Shown in pieces: positions 26 through 36,647 of a stretch of DNA of 41,699 bases; position 1 is the first letter of the stretch; the number at the start of each line of letters is the position of its first letter. The stretch lies in NCBI GenBank assembly GCA_023701365.1, contig JAMPXD010000008.1, forward strand, positions 1 to 41,699, read 5' to 3'. This DNA comes from Geobacteraceae bacterium. Lineage in GTDB: Bacteria; Desulfobacterota; Desulfuromonadia; Geobacterales; Geobacteraceae. The notes below the pieces were generated by a model that saw nothing but the letters and a program-made list of their open reading frames with translations, did no database searches and had not been told where the DNA came from. The position numbers and the translations under genes were made by a program.

Positions 26-145
26 GTGCAAAGGGGAAAAGTGAAAAGCACGCAACCAAAATCAAATAAGTCAATTTTACATTTTGCATTTTGCACTTTG
101 CACTTTGCACGGTTCATCCCGCACTTTGCACTTTGCATTGCCTTT
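26..145. repeat. Heptamer GTGCAAA/TTTGCAC element, copy 1
   Basis: A left arm of GTGCAAA/GTGAAAA units (26-50) and a right arm of TTTGCAT/TTTGCAC units (77-110 and 129-141). The right arm encodes the hydrophobic core of the pentaheme lipoprotein signal peptide. A further unit (TTTGCAT, 11-17) lies at the window edge. Confidence 0.85.
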
Positions 146-679
146 CTCACCGGCTGCGACCCCCTGACCCGCCACAAGGCCCTCACCACCATCTTTGACG
201 GCGTCCCGAGCATGCCTTCCGCCGAAGAGTACTGCCAGGACTACCATGAGCGGGCCAAGGCGGCTGAGCTGGTTGCGGCGGCCCGGAAGGAAGGGGACAA
301 GAAGGCCGACGGACAGGGTTCGACCCGGCATCTACCGTACGAGGAAAAGCGGTGCAACGATTGTCACGACCAGCAAAAGGGGGGAGCCGGGGGGCTCATT
401 CTGCCGGCGCGGGAACTCTGCTTCTCCTGCCATACCGACTTCATCAAGGGGCCCTATGTCCATGGGCCGGTCGCCGTGGGTGACTGTCTCGCCTGCCATC
501 TGCCCCACACCTCTTCCTTCGGCTATCTGCTGGCGAGGAACAAGGGCGAGATCTGCGCCAGGTGCCACCAGGAAAAGCGGCTCGCCGCCGAGATGCACGA
601 CCAGTTCGCCGCAAAAATGATGGCATGCGCGGACTGCCACAATCCTCACTTCGGCAACGCCCGCTACTTTTTCAAATAG
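41..679 (+). CDS. Pentaheme c-type cytochrome lipoprotein of an outer-membrane conduit
   Basis: Seen: five CXXCH heme sites (CNDCH, CFSCH, CLACH, CARCH, CADCH), several followed by a residue and a second His as in doubled-CXXCH/cytochrome c3-like domains. The N-terminus has a basic stretch, a hydrophobic core and a lipobox FLTGC with the modified Cys at about residue 39, so it should be a lipoprotein. The hydrophobic core (HFAFCTLHFA...HFALCIAF) is written by TTTGCAC/TTTGCAT heptamer DNA repeats. I chose GTG 41 because GGGG at 33-36 can serve as ribosome binding site; GTG 26 is in frame but lacks one. Placed 120 bp before a beta-barrel gene, it is likely the periplasm-side or surface heme wire of a porin-cytochrome complex, by analogy with pentaheme lipoproteins of Geobacter Ext conduits (analogy from memory). 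The promoter lies outside the window. Confidence 0.85.
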   Translation: MKSTQPKSNKSILHFAFCTLHFARFIPHFALCIAFLTGCDPLTRHKALTTIFDGVPSMPSAEEYCQDYHERAKAAELVAAARKEGDKKADGQGSTRHLPYEEKRCNDCHDQQKGGAGGLILPARELCFSCHTDFIKGPYVHGPVAVGDCLACHLPHTSSFGYLLARNKGEICARCHQEKRLAAEMHDQFAAKMMACADCHNPHFGNARYFFK

Positions 680-792: not shown

Positions 793-846
793 GTGTGCAA
801 AATGAAGCGTGCAATGCAAAAACTACAATGCCTTTATTGTGCACTC
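793..846. repeat. Degenerate heptamer element at the porin start
   Basis: GTGCAAA, GTGCAA and ATGCAAA units are followed by ATGCCTTTATTGTGCAC. This is a decayed copy of the same left arm/right arm layout and it covers the possible start codons of the beta-barrel gene. Confidence 0.55.
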
Positions 847-2853: not shown

Positions 2854-3001
2854 GTGCAAATTGCAAAATGCAAAATGCAAAGTGCAAAATGAAAAAACTG
2901 GAAAGCGAAAAATGAAAAACCGGCAAGAAACTAAAATAAATTTGCACCTTGCACTGTCTTTTCGATTTGCACTTTGCATTTTGCACTTTGCACTTTGCAC
3001 T
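2854..3001. repeat. Heptamer element between porin and NHL gene
   Basis: GTGCAAA/ATGCAAA units (2854-2890) face TTTGCAC/TTTGCAT units (2939-3000) around a roughly 50-bp A-rich core. The arms are mutually complementary, so the unit could form a long hairpin. The right arm is translated as the h-region of the NHL lipoprotein. Confidence 0.88.
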
Positions 3002-4000
3002 GCCTTAATGTCCGGCTGCGCCCGGCCACAGCTGGTGGCAACGCCTGCACCCGTGATAGCGCCGGTCTGGCCCTCGCCCCCCCTGGAGCCGCGGATCGAA
3101 TGGGTCAAGGAGATCCGCGATTACCGGGGTGCCGGAGTGGACCGGGGATTCTGGAAACGGGCCTGGGACTTCATCGCCGGGGAGGAGGAGGCGCGCATCA
3201 TCAAGCCCCACGGCGTTTACTTTGATGACATGCAACGGCTCTTCATAGTCGACGCCGGGGGAGCGCAGCTCCACCTCATGGACATGAGGAAGGGGCGTTA
3301 TACCCTCATCCGTCACGAAAACGGCAACGGTTTCCTTTCCCCCGTGGGGATATCCGGGGATGACGGCGGGAATGTCTATGTGACCGACTCGGGAACGGCC
3401 GTTATCTTTCGCTACAGCCTGCAGGACGATTCGCTGACCCAGTTCACCTCTGTCAAGTTCGCCCGACCGACCGGGATCGCCTTCAACAGGGCGAACCGGC
3501 TCCTTTACGTGGTTGATACCGCCGCTCACCAGGTGGTGGCGCTCGACATGACAGGGACGGAGCGGATCAGGTTCGGCTCCCGGGGGCACGGGCCGGGGCA
3601 GTTCAACTACCCAACCGACATCTGCATTGACGGGACGGGTCAGGTGATAGTGACCGACGCCCTGAACTCCCGCATCCAGATCTTTTCTTCCAGCGGCAAA
3701 CCACTCACCGCCTTCGGACAGGCCGGGGACGAGATAGGTCATTTCAACAAGCCGAAGGGGGTTGCGGTCGACAGCGACGGCCATATCTACATCTGCGATG
3801 CCCTGCATGACGCGGTCCAGATCTTCGACCCCCAGGGACAGCTGCTCCTCAGTTTCGGAGAAAGCGGCCAGGAGCCAGGACAGTTCTGGATGCCATCCGG
3901 CATCCATATCGATGCGAATGACTTCATTTACGTGGCCGACTCCTTCAATCAGCGGATTCAGGTATTTAAGTACCTGAAAGAAGTGCAAAGTGAAAAGTGA
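2912..4000 (+). CDS. NHL-repeat beta-propeller lipoprotein
   Basis: A 362-residue protein with NHL blades. Characteristic motifs are G-x-GPGQFNYPTDICID, VIVTDALNSRIQIF, HFNKPKGVAVD, IYICDALHDAVQIF and FIYVADSFNQRIQVF, consistent with a six-bladed propeller. The N-terminus ends in the lipobox ALMSGC (Cys at about 36), so it is probably a lipoprotein. Its h-region (FALCILHFALC) is encoded by TTTGCAC/TTTGCAT repeats and the preceding basic region by GTGCAAA/ATGCAAA repeats. ATG 2912 is chosen because GGAAAG at 2900-2905 sits at good spacing; the frame is open back to 2861. NHL proteins often accompany multiheme cytochromes in Geobacter clusters, and a structural or docking role in the conduit is inference. 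It follows the barrel gene after a heptamer element and precedes the S23-type gene by 3 bp. Confidence 0.82.
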   Translation: MKNRQETKINLHLALSFRFALCILHFALCTALMSGCARPQLVATPAPVIAPVWPSPPLEPRIEWVKEIRDYRGAGVDRGFWKRAWDFIAGEEEARIIKPHGVYFDDMQRLFIVDAGGAQLHLMDMRKGRYTLIRHENGNGFLSPVGISGDDGGNVYVTDSGTAVIFRYSLQDDSLTQFTSVKFARPTGIAFNRANRLLYVVDTAAHQVVALDMTGTERIRFGSRGHGPGQFNYPTDICIDGTGQVIVTDALNSRIQIFSSSGKPLTAFGQAGDEIGHFNKPKGVAVDSDGHIYICDALHDAVQIFDPQGQLLLSFGESGQEPGQFWMPSGIHIDANDFIYVADSFNQRIQVFKYLKEVQSEK

Positions 4001-4015
4001 AAAGTGCAAAATGAA
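3983..4015. repeat. Heptamer left arm before the S23-type gene
   Basis: GTGCAAA and GTGAAAA units; the last unit supplies the GTG start codon of the four-helix-bundle gene. It pairs in orientation with the TTTGCAC arm at 4408-4508. Confidence 0.8.
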
Positions 4016-4378
4016 ACCAGTGAAAATCCGAATAGAAATAACCAGCTTTCTGAGCGCTTGCTGGACTTTGCCGCAAGCATTATCAAAACTACAACCATGC
4101 TTACCAAAGGAGAAGCCAGCTGTCATATTTTCAAACAATTAATGCGTTCTTCCACCTCTGCAGGGGCCAATTACGAAGAAGCACGTGCGGCTGAAAGTCG
4201 TGCCGATTTTATTCACAAGCTCCAAATTGTCTTGAAAGAATTACGCGAATCTATTTATTGGCTACGCTTAACCCAAAAGACAGATCTTATGAAAGTTGAT
4301 CAGCTTGTCCAGGAAGCCAGGGAATTGACCAACATTATTGCAAAGTCAGTAGTAACAGCGAGGAAAAGAGCAAAATGA
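4004..4378 (+). CDS. S23-type four-helix-bundle protein
   Basis: A 124-residue, highly helical protein matching the S23/IVS four-helix-bundle family: FAASIIKTT, a Ser-Ser-Ser/Ala-Gly-Ala-Asn-Tyr-Glu-Glu-Ala-Arg-Ala segment, a Lys-Leu-x-Ile-Val-Leu-Lys-Glu helix and E-S-x-Y-W-L-R-L. The family was first known from insertions in 23S rRNA of some bacteria and is often free-standing; it shares its fold with the Avd protein of diversity-generating retroelements (established knowledge). Function here is unknown. The GTG start lies inside a GTGCAAA array and its TGA stop overlaps the ATG of the next gene (ATGA at 4375-4378), allowing coupling. Heptamer arrays in opposite orientation frame the gene (3983-4015 and 4408-4508), so it may be the passenger of a repeat element rather than an original member of the conduit operon. 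Confidence 0.8.
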   Translation: MQNETSENPNRNNQLSERLLDFAASIIKTTTMLTKGEASCHIFKQLMRSSTSAGANYEEARAAESRADFIHKLQIVLKELRESIYWLRLTQKTDLMKVDQLVQEARELTNIIAKSVVTARKRAK

Positions 4379-6222
4379 CCGTAAATCGCAAAACACGAGT
4401 CTCCAAAACTTTGCACTTTGCACTTTGCACTTTGCACTTTGCAGTTTCTCCCGCACTTTGCACTTTCAACTTTGCACTTTGCATTTTGCACTTTGCACTT
4501 TGCACTTCTTTCGCCCTTGAGCCGTCGATGAGCATCTCCGATCCTCACAACCGCCACAACCTTTCGACCACCGGCCCCGGTCTCCCCGGGGTAACAAAGG
4601 ACACCCAGCAGAGGCAGATCTGCATCTTCTGCCACACTCCCCATCATGCCACATCCGTCACCCCGCTCTGGAGCCGGGACCTTTCCGAGGAAACCTACAT
4701 CCCCTACGTATCCACGACGCTGCGGGCCACTTCGCGCCCGGGCCAGCCGAGCGGCGCATCGCGGCTCTGCCTCAGCTGCCACGACGGCACCATAGCTCTC
4801 GGCATGCTCGCGGGGGAGCGGCAGATCGCCACCCTGCCGCAGCTCCCGGCGGAGCGCGCTTCCAACCTGACCAGCGACCTTTCCGACGACCATCCGATCT
4901 CCTTTTCCTATGCCTCCGCTGTCACCTCCAACAGCGGGCTGCGGCAACCCCAGGAACTCCCTGTGCAGATACAACTGGAAGACGGCAACCTGGAATGCAC
5001 CTCCTGCCACGACCCCCACCGGGACCTCTACCCGCCGCCCGCCAAACCGACCGAGAGCGGAAAATTCCTGGTCCTGGACAACAACGCCAGTTCAGCGCTC
5101 TGCACGGCATGCCATTCCAGGGCGGGACTGACTGACGGCGCCCACTATCTGTCGGACGATGCCTGCGGCAAATGTCACGCCCCGCACAAGGCCCAGCAGC
5201 TCCAGCGGCTGCTGAAGGGACAGACCCTCCAGGATACCTGCCTGCAGAGCTGCCACAACGGCAGCGGCCCGGTCAGCACCACCGGGAGCAACATCCAGGC
5301 CATGCTGAGCCAGCCAAAGGCCCACCGGAGCAGCAGCGGACTGTTGAGCGGCAGCCACGACGCCGCCGAGAACCCCCTTGATTTCACCTCGGCCAACAGT
5401 CATGTGGAATGCGTCGACTGCCACAACCCCTGCCTGACCAGACACGAAACCACCCCCCTGTCCAATCCGCCCTGGATCAACGGCCGCCTGATCGAGGTAA
5501 CCCTGACGAGGGCGGCCGACGGCACCCGGACCATGGCCACTCGTGAATACGAGATCTGCTTCAAGTGCCACGACTCCGTACCCTTTACGCTGGCCGCCTC
5601 CGTCACCGTCAGCCGCAAGATCCCGACGCTGGACGAGTCGGCCCGTTTTTCTCCGGACAACCCCTCCTATCACCCGGTCATGGCGGCAGTGAGAGGCGCG
5701 GACGTTGCCCCCGTTCCCAGCCTCAGGGCGGAGATCCTGGGCACTTCCCGGCAACTGACGGTCGGCGGCATGATCTACTGCTCGGACTGTCACAACCCCC
5801 ACGGCGCTCCGCCTCCGATCACCCACCTGCTGGTCGCCGAGTACCAGCACACCTCCCAGCCATACAGCTACAGCAATTTCGAACTCTGCTACCGCTGCCA
5901 CCGGGAGGAGATCATCATGAGCCCGGCCCAATCGTCGTTCCCGAACCACAAATCCCACGTGGACCCCGACCCGGTTGTCGACCCGCTGGGGAGACATACC
6001 GGCAAGGAGGTTCCCTGCTCTGCCTGCCACGACCCGCACGGGGTGCCGGTAACGCTGGGGGGGACCACCACGGCCAATGCCCACCTGATCAACTTCGACA
6101 CGAACATCGTCAGCCCGGCGACCCCCGTGCCGGTCTACACGGCCACCTCCCCCGGCCACGGGTCGTGCACCGTCAGCTGCCACACCACGGGGAGCCCCGA
6201 CCCGCAGACGCATGCCTATTAA
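4375..6222 (+). CDS. Dodecaheme-type secreted c-type cytochrome
   Basis: A 615-residue protein with ten CXXCH sites (CIFCH, CLSCH, CTSCH, CTACH, CGKCH, CVDCH, CFKCH, CSDCH, CYRCH, CSACH) and two CX3CH sites (CLQSCH, CTVSCH), so up to twelve hemes. Many sites continue as CHxPH or CHDPH, the doubled-CXXCH pattern. Residues 1 to about 50 form an export signal made almost wholly of heptamer-repeat translation (LHFALCTLHFA and FALCILHFALC) ending near SFA-LEPS, a plausible signal peptidase I site; there is no lipobox. Start ATG 4375 overlaps the stop of the S23-type gene. As the last gene after pentaheme lipoprotein, barrel and NHL protein, it is the likely extracellular cytochrome of the conduit, receiving electrons through the barrel for minerals or electrodes. 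Family assignment is firm; the exact acceptor is unknown. Confidence 0.88.
   Translation: MTVNRKTRVSKTLHFALCTLHFAVSPALCTFNFALCILHFALCTSFALEPSMSISDPHNRHNLSTTGPGLPGVTKDTQQRQICIFCHTPHHATSVTPLWSRDLSEETYIPYVSTTLRATSRPGQPSGASRLCLSCHDGTIALGMLAGERQIATLPQLPAERASNLTSDLSDDHPISFSYASAVTSNSGLRQPQELPVQIQLEDGNLECTSCHDPHRDLYPPPAKPTESGKFLVLDNNASSALCTACHSRAGLTDGAHYLSDDACGKCHAPHKAQQLQRLLKGQTLQDTCLQSCHNGSGPVSTTGSNIQAMLSQPKAHRSSSGLLSGSHDAAENPLDFTSANSHVECVDCHNPCLTRHETTPLSNPPWINGRLIEVTLTRAADGTRTMATREYEICFKCHDSVPFTLAASVTVSRKIPTLDESARFSPDNPSYHPVMAAVRGADVAPVPSLRAEILGTSRQLTVGGMIYCSDCHNPHGAPPPITHLLVAEYQHTSQPYSYSNFELCYRCHREEIIMSPAQSSFPNHKSHVDPDPVVDPLGRHTGKEVPCSACHDPHGVPVTLGGTTTANAHLINFDTNIVSPATPVPVYTATSPGHGSCTVSCHTTGSPDPQTHAY
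4408..4508. repeat. Heptamer right arm after the S23-type gene
   Basis: At least eight TTTGCAC/TTTGCAT units with two short interruptions. Fully translated as the signal peptide core of the dodecaheme-type cytochrome. Confidence 0.88.
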
Positions 6223-6228
6223 AGGCAA

Positions 6229-6318
6229 TTCAAAGTGCAAATTGCAAAGTGCAAAGTTGAAAAGCTTTTCATGCCTTTAATTTTGCACTTTGCAATTTTC
6301 ACTTTGCACTTTGCACTG
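6229..6318. repeat. Heptamer element downstream of the conduit operon
   Basis: GTGCAAA/TTGCAAA units (6232-6260) and TTTGCAC/TTTGCAA units (6283-6317) around a short core that contains a GAAAAGCTTTTC palindrome. This copy is intergenic and could fold as a hairpin after the cytochrome gene. Confidence 0.85.
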
Positions 6319-10992: not shown

Positions 10993-12321
10993 ATGAAATA
11001 CGCAAGACTGTTGGTCAGTTGCACCCTCGCCCTGCTACTGCTGCTGGCGGCTCTCCCCGATGCCCCCGCCGCAGCCGCCAATCTCAGCATCTCCCCCGGC
11101 GGAGACGGCATCTACGTGCTGGAGTGCAGCGCCGTCAACGAGGTGGAAACCATGGACGTCACCTTCCGCTACGACAACAGTGCCATGACTATCGTGTCGG
11201 TGCGGGAGGGAAGTCTCGTCTCCGGCAGGGGAACCCTCTCCTCCTCCGGCATCGGCACCGGAGAAGTCAGGGTATATGTGAAATACACCCCACCCGTTTC
11301 CGGCAACGGCCCCATCGCCATCATCTCCTACACCCCGAAACCGGGGAGCGCGGGGAACGTCAGTTCCCTGCGGGGAACCATGATCAACTCGGACAAGGAG
11401 TCCATTCCTGTCGCGGTGTCGGTGCGTAACCCGAGCCAACCTGACCAGCAGCTGGCAGCTGACAAGGCGGCAGCTGACAAGGCGGCAGCTGACAAGGCGG
11501 CAGCTGACAAGGCGGCAGCTGACAAGGCGGCAGCTGACAAGGCGGCAGCTGACAAGGCGGCAGCCGGCCAGGCTGCGGCCGGCCAAGCAGCAGCCGAGCA
11601 ACCGGCGACCAGGACGCCGCAGGTGACTCAAACGACGGTCATTCCATCGACCCCAACGGGATTGCCTGCGTCCATCAGCGTCGGCATGCCCAAGGACGAA
11701 ACCAGTAAGGCAAGCCCCGAGTCGCCCGTCGCTCCGGAAGCTTCCCAGGGTCTGGCGTCTGCCGAAAAATCGGCAGCCGCTGAAGCCGCTACCAGGGCTG
11801 AGGCGGCAACTGACGACAAATCACCGGAAGTTCTGGAGCGTTTCAGGAATTACCGCGGGGAGCGAAGCCTCCAGGCGTTCGCCGCGCTTTTCAAGACCAC
11901 TGCCAATTCAAGCATTACCCAGGAGCCCAGGATCGTCCTTTCCGACGGCTCGGCCAAGGCCACACTGCTGATCAAGGGACACAGCACCCTCAAATACTCC
12001 CTGCAAAAAGCCAAGCGCAGCTCTCTGAAGAAGACGGCGGACAACAGCTGGCAACTGGAGGTGGTCCCGGACAAGGGCACCCACACGGCCGCTATCATGA
12101 TCAGGCAGGGGAGCTCTACTGTTACGTTCCCCCTCACCGTGGCTCCTCCTGCCAAGGTTACGGATAAGGATTTTCCCGCCTATCTCAGCGAGCGCGCCAA
12201 GGGGTCCACACGTTTCGACCTGAACAAGGACGGGGTCACCAACTACATCGACGACTACATCTTCACGGCCAACTGCCTGGCGGCGCGGCAGCATGGCGCG
12301 AAGGGGCCAGGTACGAAGTAG
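10993..12321 (+). CDS. Secreted cohesin-like / dockerin-like protein with ADKAA repeats
   Basis: A 442-residue protein. ATG 10993 follows GAGGAGG. The signal peptide (MKYARLLVSCTLALLLLLAAL, A-rich cleavage region near 34) leads to a beta-rich domain at about 35-150 resembling cohesin/carbohydrate-binding folds (NLSISPGGDG...VTFRYDNSAMTI...). Then come seven ADKAA pentapeptides, an Ala-rich linker, a second beta-rich region, and near the C-terminus RFDLNKDGVTNYIDDYIF, a calcium-loop motif (DxNxDGxxNxxD) typical of half a dockerin. Cohesin and dockerin partner modules assemble cell-surface complexes in other bacteria; here they may scaffold or self-assemble surface cytochromes (inference from its place between two giant surface cytochromes). 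It has its own promoter and terminator. No enzymatic motif is seen. Confidence 0.72.
   Translation: MKYARLLVSCTLALLLLLAALPDAPAAAANLSISPGGDGIYVLECSAVNEVETMDVTFRYDNSAMTIVSVREGSLVSGRGTLSSSGIGTGEVRVYVKYTPPVSGNGPIAIISYTPKPGSAGNVSSLRGTMINSDKESIPVAVSVRNPSQPDQQLAADKAAADKAAADKAAADKAAADKAAADKAAADKAAAGQAAAGQAAAEQPATRTPQVTQTTVIPSTPTGLPASISVGMPKDETSKASPESPVAPEASQGLASAEKSAAAEAATRAEAATDDKSPEVLERFRNYRGERSLQAFAALFKTTANSSITQEPRIVLSDGSAKATLLIKGHSTLKYSLQKAKRSSLKKTADNSWQLEVVPDKGTHTAAIMIRQGSSTVTFPLTVAPPAKVTDKDFPAYLSERAKGSTRFDLNKDGVTNYIDDYIFTANCLAARQHGAKGPGTK
11456..11565 (+). repeat. 15-bp tandem repeat, seven units
   Basis: Seven head-to-tail units of GCAGCTGACAAGGCG, virtually identical, in frame and encoding ADKAA. 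The near-perfect identity suggests recent expansion and possible length variation between strains. Confidence 0.93.
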
Positions 12322-18423: not shown

Positions 18424-18461
18424 TCTTGCACTTTGTATTTTGCATTTTGCATTTTGCACTC
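18424..18461. repeat. Heptamer right-arm array
   Basis: TTGCAC, TTTGTAT, TTTGCAT, TTTGCAT and TTTGCAC units. Only a trace of a left arm (TTTGCAAAAT at 18351-18360) is seen. Confidence 0.78.
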
Positions 18462-18498
18462 TCCACAGTGCGTCATATCCTCCACAGTGCGTCATATC
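18461..18498. repeat. 19-bp tandem direct repeat
   Basis: CTCCACAGTGCGTCATATC occurs twice back to back, about 270 bp upstream of the sigma-54-type promoter. It may be a binding site or a simple duplication. Confidence 0.8.
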
Positions 18499-25368: not shown

Positions 25369-25464
25369 AATGCAAAATGCAAAGTGCAAACTTTAAAATG
25401 CAAAATGTTAATGCCTTTGCATTTCCATTTTTCACTTTGTATTTTGCATTTTTCACTTTGCAGT
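25369..25464. repeat. Heptamer element before the YihY gene
   Basis: ATGCAAA/GTGCAAA units (25370-25409) and TTTGCAT/TTTTCAC/TTTGTAT/TTTGCAG units (25418-25461). The stretch is open in frame with the downstream gene and would add a 32-residue basic-then-hydrophobic leader. Confidence 0.85.
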
Positions 25465-29359: not shown

Positions 29360-29457
29360 ATGTGCAAAGTGCAAAATGCAAAATGCAAAGTTGAAATCGA
29401 AAAACCGTTCTCAATTTTGCACTTTTCACTTTGCACTTTAAACTTTGCACTTTCAAA
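29360..29457. repeat. Heptamer element between lpxH and the UPF0158 gene
   Basis: GTGCAAA/ATGCAAA arm (29361-29393) and TTTGCAC/TTTTCAC arm (29417-29453) around an AAACCG core. It is near-symmetric and open in both directions, in frame with both divergent genes: on each strand it reads as a basic stretch followed by a LHFALCT-like hydrophobic stretch. Confidence 0.87.
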
Positions 29458-35365: not shown

Positions 35366-36647
35366 CGCCCCGCGGCGCCCCCTTTGTCACCTCCGGGGGT
35401 CTCGGCCTTCGCCAGTGCACCTGTTCGGCGGCCTTTCGGTACCATTTGGCCGCCTCCATCCTGTCCTGCTGCACCCCCTCCCCCTTGTCGTACATCAGGC
35501 CGATTTTCAGCTGTGCCCTGGGGTGTCCCTGCTCCGCCGCCTTCAGGAACCATTTGGCCGCCTCGGTCTGGTCCTTTTCGACCCCCTCTCCCCCGAAATA
35601 GAGGGAGCCGAGGCTGAACTGGGCTTCGGCATCCCCCTGCTCGGCGGCCTTGCGGTACCATCTGGCCGACTCCCGGTCGTCCTGGGCCACCCCCTGGCCC
35701 CTGCCGTACATCAGGCCAAGATTGTACTGGGCCGGCGCCACCCCCTTGTCAGCGGCCCGGCGGTACCACTTGGCGGCCTCCTTCCAATCCTGCTTCACCC
35801 CTTCCCCCTTTTCGTGGAGAAGGCCGAGATTGTACTGGGCCGCCGCATGACCCTTGTCGGCCGCCTTGCGGTACCAGACGGCCGCGTCCTTCTTGTCCTG
35901 CTTCCCCCCTGCCCCCTTATCGTAGAGCAGGCCGAGATTGAACAGGGCCGGCAGATAACCCTGGCCGGCCGCCTTGCGGTACCATTTCAGCGCCTCTTTC
36001 CTGTCCTGGTTGACCCCCTCCCCCCGGTCGTACAACAGGGCCAGGTTGTACTGCGCCGCCGTATACCCTTTCTCGGCGGCCTTGCGGTACCACTTCAGGG
36101 CCTCCTGCCGGTCCTGCTCGATCCCCTCTCCCCGGTCGTACACCAGGGCCAGGTTGTACTGGGCCGTCACCATCCCCTGCTCGGCGGCCTTGCGGTACCA
36201 TTTGGCCGCTTCCTTCCTCTCCTGCGCAACCCCCTCCCCCCGGTCGTACAGGACGCCGAGGTTGAACTGGGCAACGGCATGACCCTGCTCGGCGGCCTTG
36301 CGGTACCACCTGGCAGACTCCCGCCGGTCGTATTCAACCCCCTCCCCCTTGGAGTACATCAGGCCGAGATTGTACTGGGCCGGGGGGTATCCCTGCTCGG
36401 CAGCCCTGCGGTACCAGTTGGCCGCCTCCCGGGTATCCAGCTTGACCCCGGTGCCGACATAGTACATCAGGCCGAGGTTGAACTGGGCCTCGGCACTGCC
36501 GTCGTTCTTGAACTCGCGGAAAGCCGTGGCGTAGTCCCCCTCGTCGTACGCCCGCATCCCCGCATCGAAGTCGGCCAGGGCCGGCAGCGCCGACCCGGCG
36601 TACATGGCAACACCCAGAAAAAGTCCTGCCACGGCACGTTTCATCAT
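35355..36647 (-). CDS. Exported SEL1-repeat (TPR-like) protein, ten repeats
   Basis: A 430-residue protein with signal peptide (MMKRAVAGLFLGVAMYAGSA, cleavage near ALA-DF), a TPR-like start (FDAGMRAYDEGDYATAFREF) and ten tandem 36-residue SEL1 units of the form AQYNLGLLYDxGEGVxQDxxEAxKWYRKAAEQG. Such alpha-solenoids bind other proteins; partner unknown. ATG 36647 (a second ATG at 36644) follows AAGGAGC. The C-terminus is a short Arg/Pro-rich tail overlapping the end of plsY. The repeats are very alike at DNA level (108-bp units), which invites copy-number change. Confidence 0.9.
   Translation of the reverse strand: MMKRAVAGLFLGVAMYAGSALPALADFDAGMRAYDEGDYATAFREFKNDGSAEAQFNLGLMYYVGTGVKLDTREAANWYRRAAEQGYPPAQYNLGLMYSKGEGVEYDRRESARWYRKAAEQGHAVAQFNLGVLYDRGEGVAQERKEAAKWYRKAAEQGMVTAQYNLALVYDRGEGIEQDRQEALKWYRKAAEKGYTAAQYNLALLYDRGEGVNQDRKEALKWYRKAAGQGYLPALFNLGLLYDKGAGGKQDKKDAAVWYRKAADKGHAAAQYNLGLLHEKGEGVKQDWKEAAKWYRRAADKGVAPAQYNLGLMYGRGQGVAQDDRESARWYRKAAEQGDAEAQFSLGSLYFGGEGVEKDQTEAAKWFLKAAEQGHPRAQLKIGLMYDKGEGVQQDRMEAAKWYRKAAEQVHWRRPRPPEVTKGAPRGVTP

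Follow-up and report, generated by a model that had tools for sequence, protein, structure and literature searches.

How does a tandem DNA repeat come to stand where an exported protein should carry its signal peptide? The question is raised by the start of a 41,699-nucleotide stretch of DNA (here, the window), one of 283 contigs in the 3.79 Mb draft genome of a Geobacteraceae bacterium that looks Geobacter-like from its multiheme genes, where an array of TTTGCAC heptamers runs into a cytochrome gene. A sequence-only reading took the array to form the lipoprotein signal of this pentaheme cytochrome, and at 26-157 a predicted lipobox and a conserved cleavage boundary bear this out:

26..679, + strand: pentaheme c-type cytochrome lipoprotein, with five CXXCH motifs and a match to the Paired_CXXCH_1 profile
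26..138, + strand: heptamer element, whose TTTGCAY arm at 83-138 is predicted to encode the cytochrome signal's hydrophobic core; possible starts are the GTG codons at 26 and 41
146..157, + strand: predicted lipobox LTGC, with Cys+1 at 155-157; mature start C|DPLTRH, compared with C|DPVTRH in orthologues
793..820, + strand: degenerate heptamer remnant, in the n-region of the porin-like ORF that follows (793-2853)

The GTGCAAA unit occupies 26-32, and TTTGCAY units fill 83-110 and 125-138; alignment of the mature start gives C|DPLTRHK in the host and C|DPVTTHK and C|NPVTRHE in orthologues. GTG 41 appears to be a better start than GTG 26, because it is preceded by GGGG. Translating the units also confirms that TTTGCAC arrays read FALCTLH and TTTGCAT arrays FAFCILH in all three frames without a stop, and that the reverse-complement strand reads VQSAKCK or MQNAKCK. 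Since a unit of seven is not a multiple of three, each array gives the same cyclic peptide in every frame. TTTGCAC is unusually suited to signal-peptide coding, in that an uncharged hydrophobic peptide on one strand combined with a net charge of at least +2 on the other is found for 213 of 16380 heptamers (1.3%).

The array belongs to a dispersed family. The dimer TTTGCAYTTTGCAY has 65 copies in the host genome, far above chance, as its reversed control has 0. Among 58 genomes searched, the host included, only six others hold it, with 1-2 copies each; this scarcity in the 57 other genomes indicates an expansion specific to the host lineage. Yet as a triple, the heptamer is present in more than 100 genomes of many phyla among the matches listed, which rules out an origin within one genus. 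Counting own-genome loci and the window together, we find about 27 TTTGCAC arrays in the host, in the order GTGCAAA arm, loop, TTTGCAC arm. Two further families, TTTAGCC/TTTGCCC and CAAAACT, have an identical layout and mostly the same placement, and GCATTCC is likely another, seen as HSALRIPHSAL in an ORF at locus L385 (129-905). The heptamer elements are short, dispersed and bounded by terminal inverted repeats, features that they share with MITEs, or non-autonomous transposons.

Most copies lie outside genes. Of the 27 TTTGCAC arrays, 23 encode no signal and are mostly intergenic, usually 0-12 nt behind a stop codon. Among the 48 arrays that have a stop codon within 400 nt, 38 start no more than 12 nt behind it, and where there is room, arrays lie nearer the stop than expected if they were placed uniformly (KS p 0.0007, n = 17), in an approximate analysis that picked gene starts by a simple ribosome-site score. 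Further copies in the window are as follows:

6228..6316, + strand: short palindromic copy in intergenic DNA, 5 nt after a stop codon
15189..15485, unstranded: GTGCAAA arm separated by about 235 bp from a TTTGCAC arm, with other repeats in the gap, flanked by convergent genes
18425..18466, + strand: lone TTTGCAY arm, intergenic
25370..25463, unstranded: short palindromic copy, intergenic; the flanking genes' starts lie outside it
29362..29457, unstranded: short palindromic copy flanked by divergent genes; ORFs through it are stop-free by construction

At two other loci, heptamer arrays overlap gene 3' ends (L044 527-561, L033 2807-2935), where they apparently contribute C-terminal codons or the stop codon. 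At L381 (1402-2235), the N-terminus MTDNKTDSNSKLKTQNSKLA of the cytoplasmic protein FolE2 is read from a CAAAACT array, so that here a hydrophilic unit has entered a non-exported protein in frame. The window also holds coding repeats of other kinds: about ten tandem copies of a 108-bp repeat at 35420-36495, and, inside ORF 10993-12321, 7.4 copies of the perfect 15-bp tandem repeat GGCAGCTGACAAGGC (11454-11596), followed by a related 15-bp repeat.

What, then, is the array a part of? In describing it as a portable signal, the sequence-only reading missed that arrays elsewhere also form the arms of elements enclosing a gene of the S23/IVP family; the array thus appears to be one arm of a wider class of elements. 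The window holds a full-length example:

3976..4512, + strand: full-length element, with a GTGCAAA-type arm at 3976-4017, an S23/IVP gene, and a TTTGCAC arm at 4410-4512
4004..4378, + strand: predicted S23 / 23S_rRNA_IVP four-helix-bundle protein, matching PF05635 and TIGR02436

The termini of this element pair perfectly over 17 nt (GAAAGAAGTGCAAAGTG / CACTTTGCACTTCTTTC), and RNA folding brings them together. The ORF scores 56.9 bits against PF05635 (cut-off 33.8) and 79.7 bits against TIGR02436 (cut-off 24), and its solved structural relatives are 2rld and 2gsc. The element lies between the NHL and cytochrome genes, its S23 gene within a cytochrome operon, and no Rfam match was found in the window, so that it is not a 23S rRNA intervening sequence. 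The host has three S23 genes (one a partial match), with arms of TTTGCAC, CAAAACT and GGCTAAA, one for each dispersed family.

This association extends well beyond the host. An S23 homologue is present at 5 of 117 loci among the triple-heptamer matches listed and lies between such arms at four of them; at the fifth (L114) the gene reaches the end of the stretch and no clear arm pair is seen. PF05635 matches occur in 44 of 48 genomes of the host's family, compared with 0 of 14 control genomes. For 86 S23 genes of this family, which include orthologous sites in related genomes and therefore represent fewer than 86 independent cases, the mean inversion score of the flanks is 23.6, compared with 9.8 for swapped flanks and 9.1 for control genes. 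A score of at least 18 is reached by 77% of the 86, by 4% with swapped flanks, and by 0 of 97 control genes; the swapped control is conservative, because any bias from orthologous sites is common to both. The strongly inverted flanks are mostly heptameric, and period-7 arrays accompany 40 of the 86 S23 genes versus 1 of the 97 control genes. Two adjacent S23 genes in one genome (L278, L305) have different arm units. In four other phyla, plasmid-borne four-helix-bundle genes have inverted short-repeat arms in all 12 cases examined (mean score 25.0, compared with 11.4 for swapped flanks; lowest single score 15), drawn from Nostoc, Anabaena, Pseudanabaena, Dolichospermum, Planktothrix, Gloeocapsa, Euhalothece, Chlorohelix, Bernardetia and Treponema. 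A four-helix-bundle gene is flanked by cas2 and cas1 on plasmids of Nostoc and Anabaena (L386, L389), and by DUF1156 and Swt1-HEPN genes in both Gloeocapsa and Chlorohelix (L394, L397). At two S23 sites compared across one genus, where the flanks are highly diverged, we found no clean empty site or target duplication.

The arrays might instead be products of replication slippage or some other process of the host, with S23 genes as passengers in hairpins that already existed. We know of no enzymatic activity for S23, nor is it to our knowledge a transposase; S23 genes are vastly outnumbered by arrays, and wide arm pairs that lack an S23 gene also occur, which rules out an S23 gene in every such pair. 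Against passengers, the arm units vary among S23 genes yet match across each single gene, and each host heptamer family has an S23 gene of its own. We therefore regard this alternative as unlikely, while giving it real weight, and prefer a dispersed element whose longer form carries an S23 gene.

Returning to the signal peptides, the cytochrome at the window start is not alone. Its claim to an array-made signal extends to three further genes, two of them in the window:

2854..3000, + strand: heptamer element directly after the stop at 2853, with a GTGCAAA arm at 2854-2895 and a TTTGCAC arm at 2941-3000
2861..4000, + strand: NHL-repeat lipoprotein, with the TTTGCAC arm at 2941-3000 as predicted signal core; ATG at 2912, Cys+1 at 3017-3019
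4375..6222, + strand: decaheme cytochrome (10 CXXCH), whose predicted signal, to about 4515 (SFA|LEPS), is supplied by the S23 element's right arm

The ATG of the decaheme cytochrome overlaps the stop of the S23 gene (4375 versus 4378). The fourth case, elsewhere in the host genome, is a TolC-type outer membrane protein (L039 4035-5414, Pfam OEP), in which both arms are in frame and the complement arm reads as a basic n-region (QSAKCKVQSAK). All four genes use a TTTGCAC arm as their predicted signal-peptide core, and the proteins would be exported through these signals. The two predicted lipoproteins (26-679 and 2861-4000) combine a basic n-region (+4 and +3), a hydrophobic core and a lipobox with its Cys (LTGC and MSGC), as expected of Sec/SPII substrates. 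Across the array-made signals, core hydrophobicity is 2.2-2.3, toward the bottom of the 2.2-3.3 span seen in orthologues, and n-region charge, at +3 to +8, is above that of the orthologues. For all four genes, orthologues have ordinary signals and align with the host protein from the same cleavage boundary onward, which suggests that the array replaced a signal that was already there.

Array-made signals account for 4 of 27 TTTGCAC arrays and 0 of 47 arrays in the other two families (Fisher p 0.015), a difference that we do not read as enrichment for exported genes, since it comes mainly from stop codons in the TTTAGCC and TTTGAGT units (the latter from the complement of CAAAACT). Among host-genome arrays of the TTTAGCC family, none was found in a signal peptide.

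Three other accounts of these signals can be weighed. The arrays could be contingency loci in which gain or loss of units shifts the frame and switches an exported protein on or off, as a 7-nt unit would do. The repeat also lies in signal-peptide codons, as the CTCTT repeat does in Neisseria opa (PMC5354566). We consider this improbable, given that short, imperfect arrays limit slippage and that start codons are available in every frame of the GTGCAAA arm; opa repeats are specific to one gene family and phase variable, whereas the host arrays are dispersed elements, the likeness being that a short non-triplet repeat encodes part of a signal peptide in both (PMC5354566). Alternatively, the arrays could be untranslated and intergenic, crossed by ORFs only because the repeats are stop-free, or the genes could be pseudogenes or assembly errors. 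We accept such read-through for most other arrays, for example those at 25370 and 29362. For the four genes it is very improbable and, as a pure artefact, ruled out: no start codon or alternative hydrophobic core lies between array and conserved cleavage site in any of them, GGAGG precedes the TolC start, the frames are open, and the cytochromes retain 5 and 10 CXXCH motifs. Least probable of all is that the repeat makes new proteins exported wherever it lands, a view favored by the rarity of heptamers that are hydrophobic with a basic complement and by whole elements that read as n-region plus core, and contradicted by the replacement of existing signals in the four host cases, by arrays that remain outside the coding region before cytoplasmic genes, and by the lack of any newly exported protein among host arrays.

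Two parts of the sequence-only reading therefore do not stand. That the repeat creates export signals wherever it lands conflicts with the placement of most arrays in intergenic DNA upstream of the true starts, the very outcome that reading had named as refuting it; overlap with signals holds for four genes and fails for the other 23 arrays. Nor is this a new route to protein secretion: all four orthologue sets were already exported, which rules out secretion arising de novo. The layout of basic n-region and hydrophobic core is supported. In the 26-138 copy the GTGCAAA arm is weak, with one good unit; a signal appears to be made from a whole element in the host TolC (L039) and, in other bacterial groups, in a Thermoanaerobaculia lipoprotein (L076, MQNAECKMQNAKRVLPRAFFAFCILHFAFVFLTSC) and a Deltaproteobacteria M48 peptidase (L090, MKKIENCKLKIANFKIILFAFCILHSALCNIVLA|S).

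Signal-coding DNA has received other repeats as well. TolC orthologues L195-L198 and L201 have other repeats in the signal region, with CACAGAG/CTCTGTG-type repeats at the corresponding place in L201 and L198 and yet others in L196 and L197. In L200 and L202, the octamer inverted repeat ACGCAGAG sits in frame, with the start before it and the mature end after it both conserved; L199, which belongs to the genus of L200-L202, shares the start and end of the signal region and lacks the insert almost wholly, with CTCTGCG left. CTCTGTG/CTCTGCG-type octamers are dispersed in the genomes of these orthologues. Inverted repeats of other kinds at this position suggest that such repeats land in signal-coding DNA again and again and are tolerated there.

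Parts of this architecture resemble known systems. The 23S rRNA intervening sequences of Coxiella and Leptospira likewise hold an S23-family ORF within an inverted-repeat loop, and that of Coxiella has tandem GACAGAT heptamers before the S23p ORF, differing in copy number between strains (PMC4990558). The present elements differ in lying between protein genes, in having heptamer arms on both sides with a different unit at each locus, and in having many short copies. Intergenic tandem heptamers, many per genome like the host arrays, are described in Xanthomonas, where they form inverted pairs (PMC4692102), in Beggiatoaceae (PMC4679880) and in cyanobacteria; in the available portions of the Xanthomonas, Beggiatoaceae and cyanobacterial (Nostoc) reports, they are not linked to S23 genes or signal peptides (PMC4692102, PMC4679880). 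We found no general statement of the heptamer-S23 link in the literature searched, which covered few subscription journals, so that earlier reports may exist. Rickettsia palindromic elements and other MITEs are also dispersed palindromes tolerated within coding sequence; the host elements differ from them in their variable heptamer arms, their site behind stop codons and their landing in signal peptides.

We propose, with a probability of a little over three in four, that a dispersed (GTGCAAA)n - loop - (TTTGCAC)n inverted-repeat element, of which the array forms one arm, carries an S23 gene in its longer form, settles behind stop codons and replaces existing signals. The longer form would hold the S23/IVP gene in its loop, as at 3976-4512, and the short palindromes are probably derived copies that lack it. 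Copies would settle almost exclusively where one gene gives way to the next, usually no more than 12 nt past a stop; in a tight operon the next gene starts there, and the insertion would fall in its first codons. Where the product of that gene is exported and the unit has no stops and is hydrophobic, the insertion could survive as a new signal peptide. Tolerance would follow from the many basic-then-hydrophobic sequences that can serve as signal peptides, and from the heptamer reading as FALCTLH in all frames with VQSAKCK as its complement. With the cleavage site and mature protein kept, the element would replace a signal and invent none. More tentatively, and leaning slightly against it ourselves, we suggest that S23/IVP proteins drive heptamer inverted-repeat elements across phyla, the cyanobacterial heptamers included, which are placed behind stops and repeatedly rewrite signals as a by-product; this role for S23, like the mobility of the elements, is our reading of their arrangement.

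The four genes provide clear sequence cases in which a dispersed non-coding repeat has been taken over as a signal peptide, with orthologues showing the prior state. The architecture of heptamer arrays around an S23 gene is the more important result. S23/four-helix-bundle proteins are a poorly understood family, and repeats flank their genes in several bacterial phyla; this simple and testable architecture joins two long-standing questions, namely what S23/IVP proteins are for and how heptamer arrays arise in bacteria.
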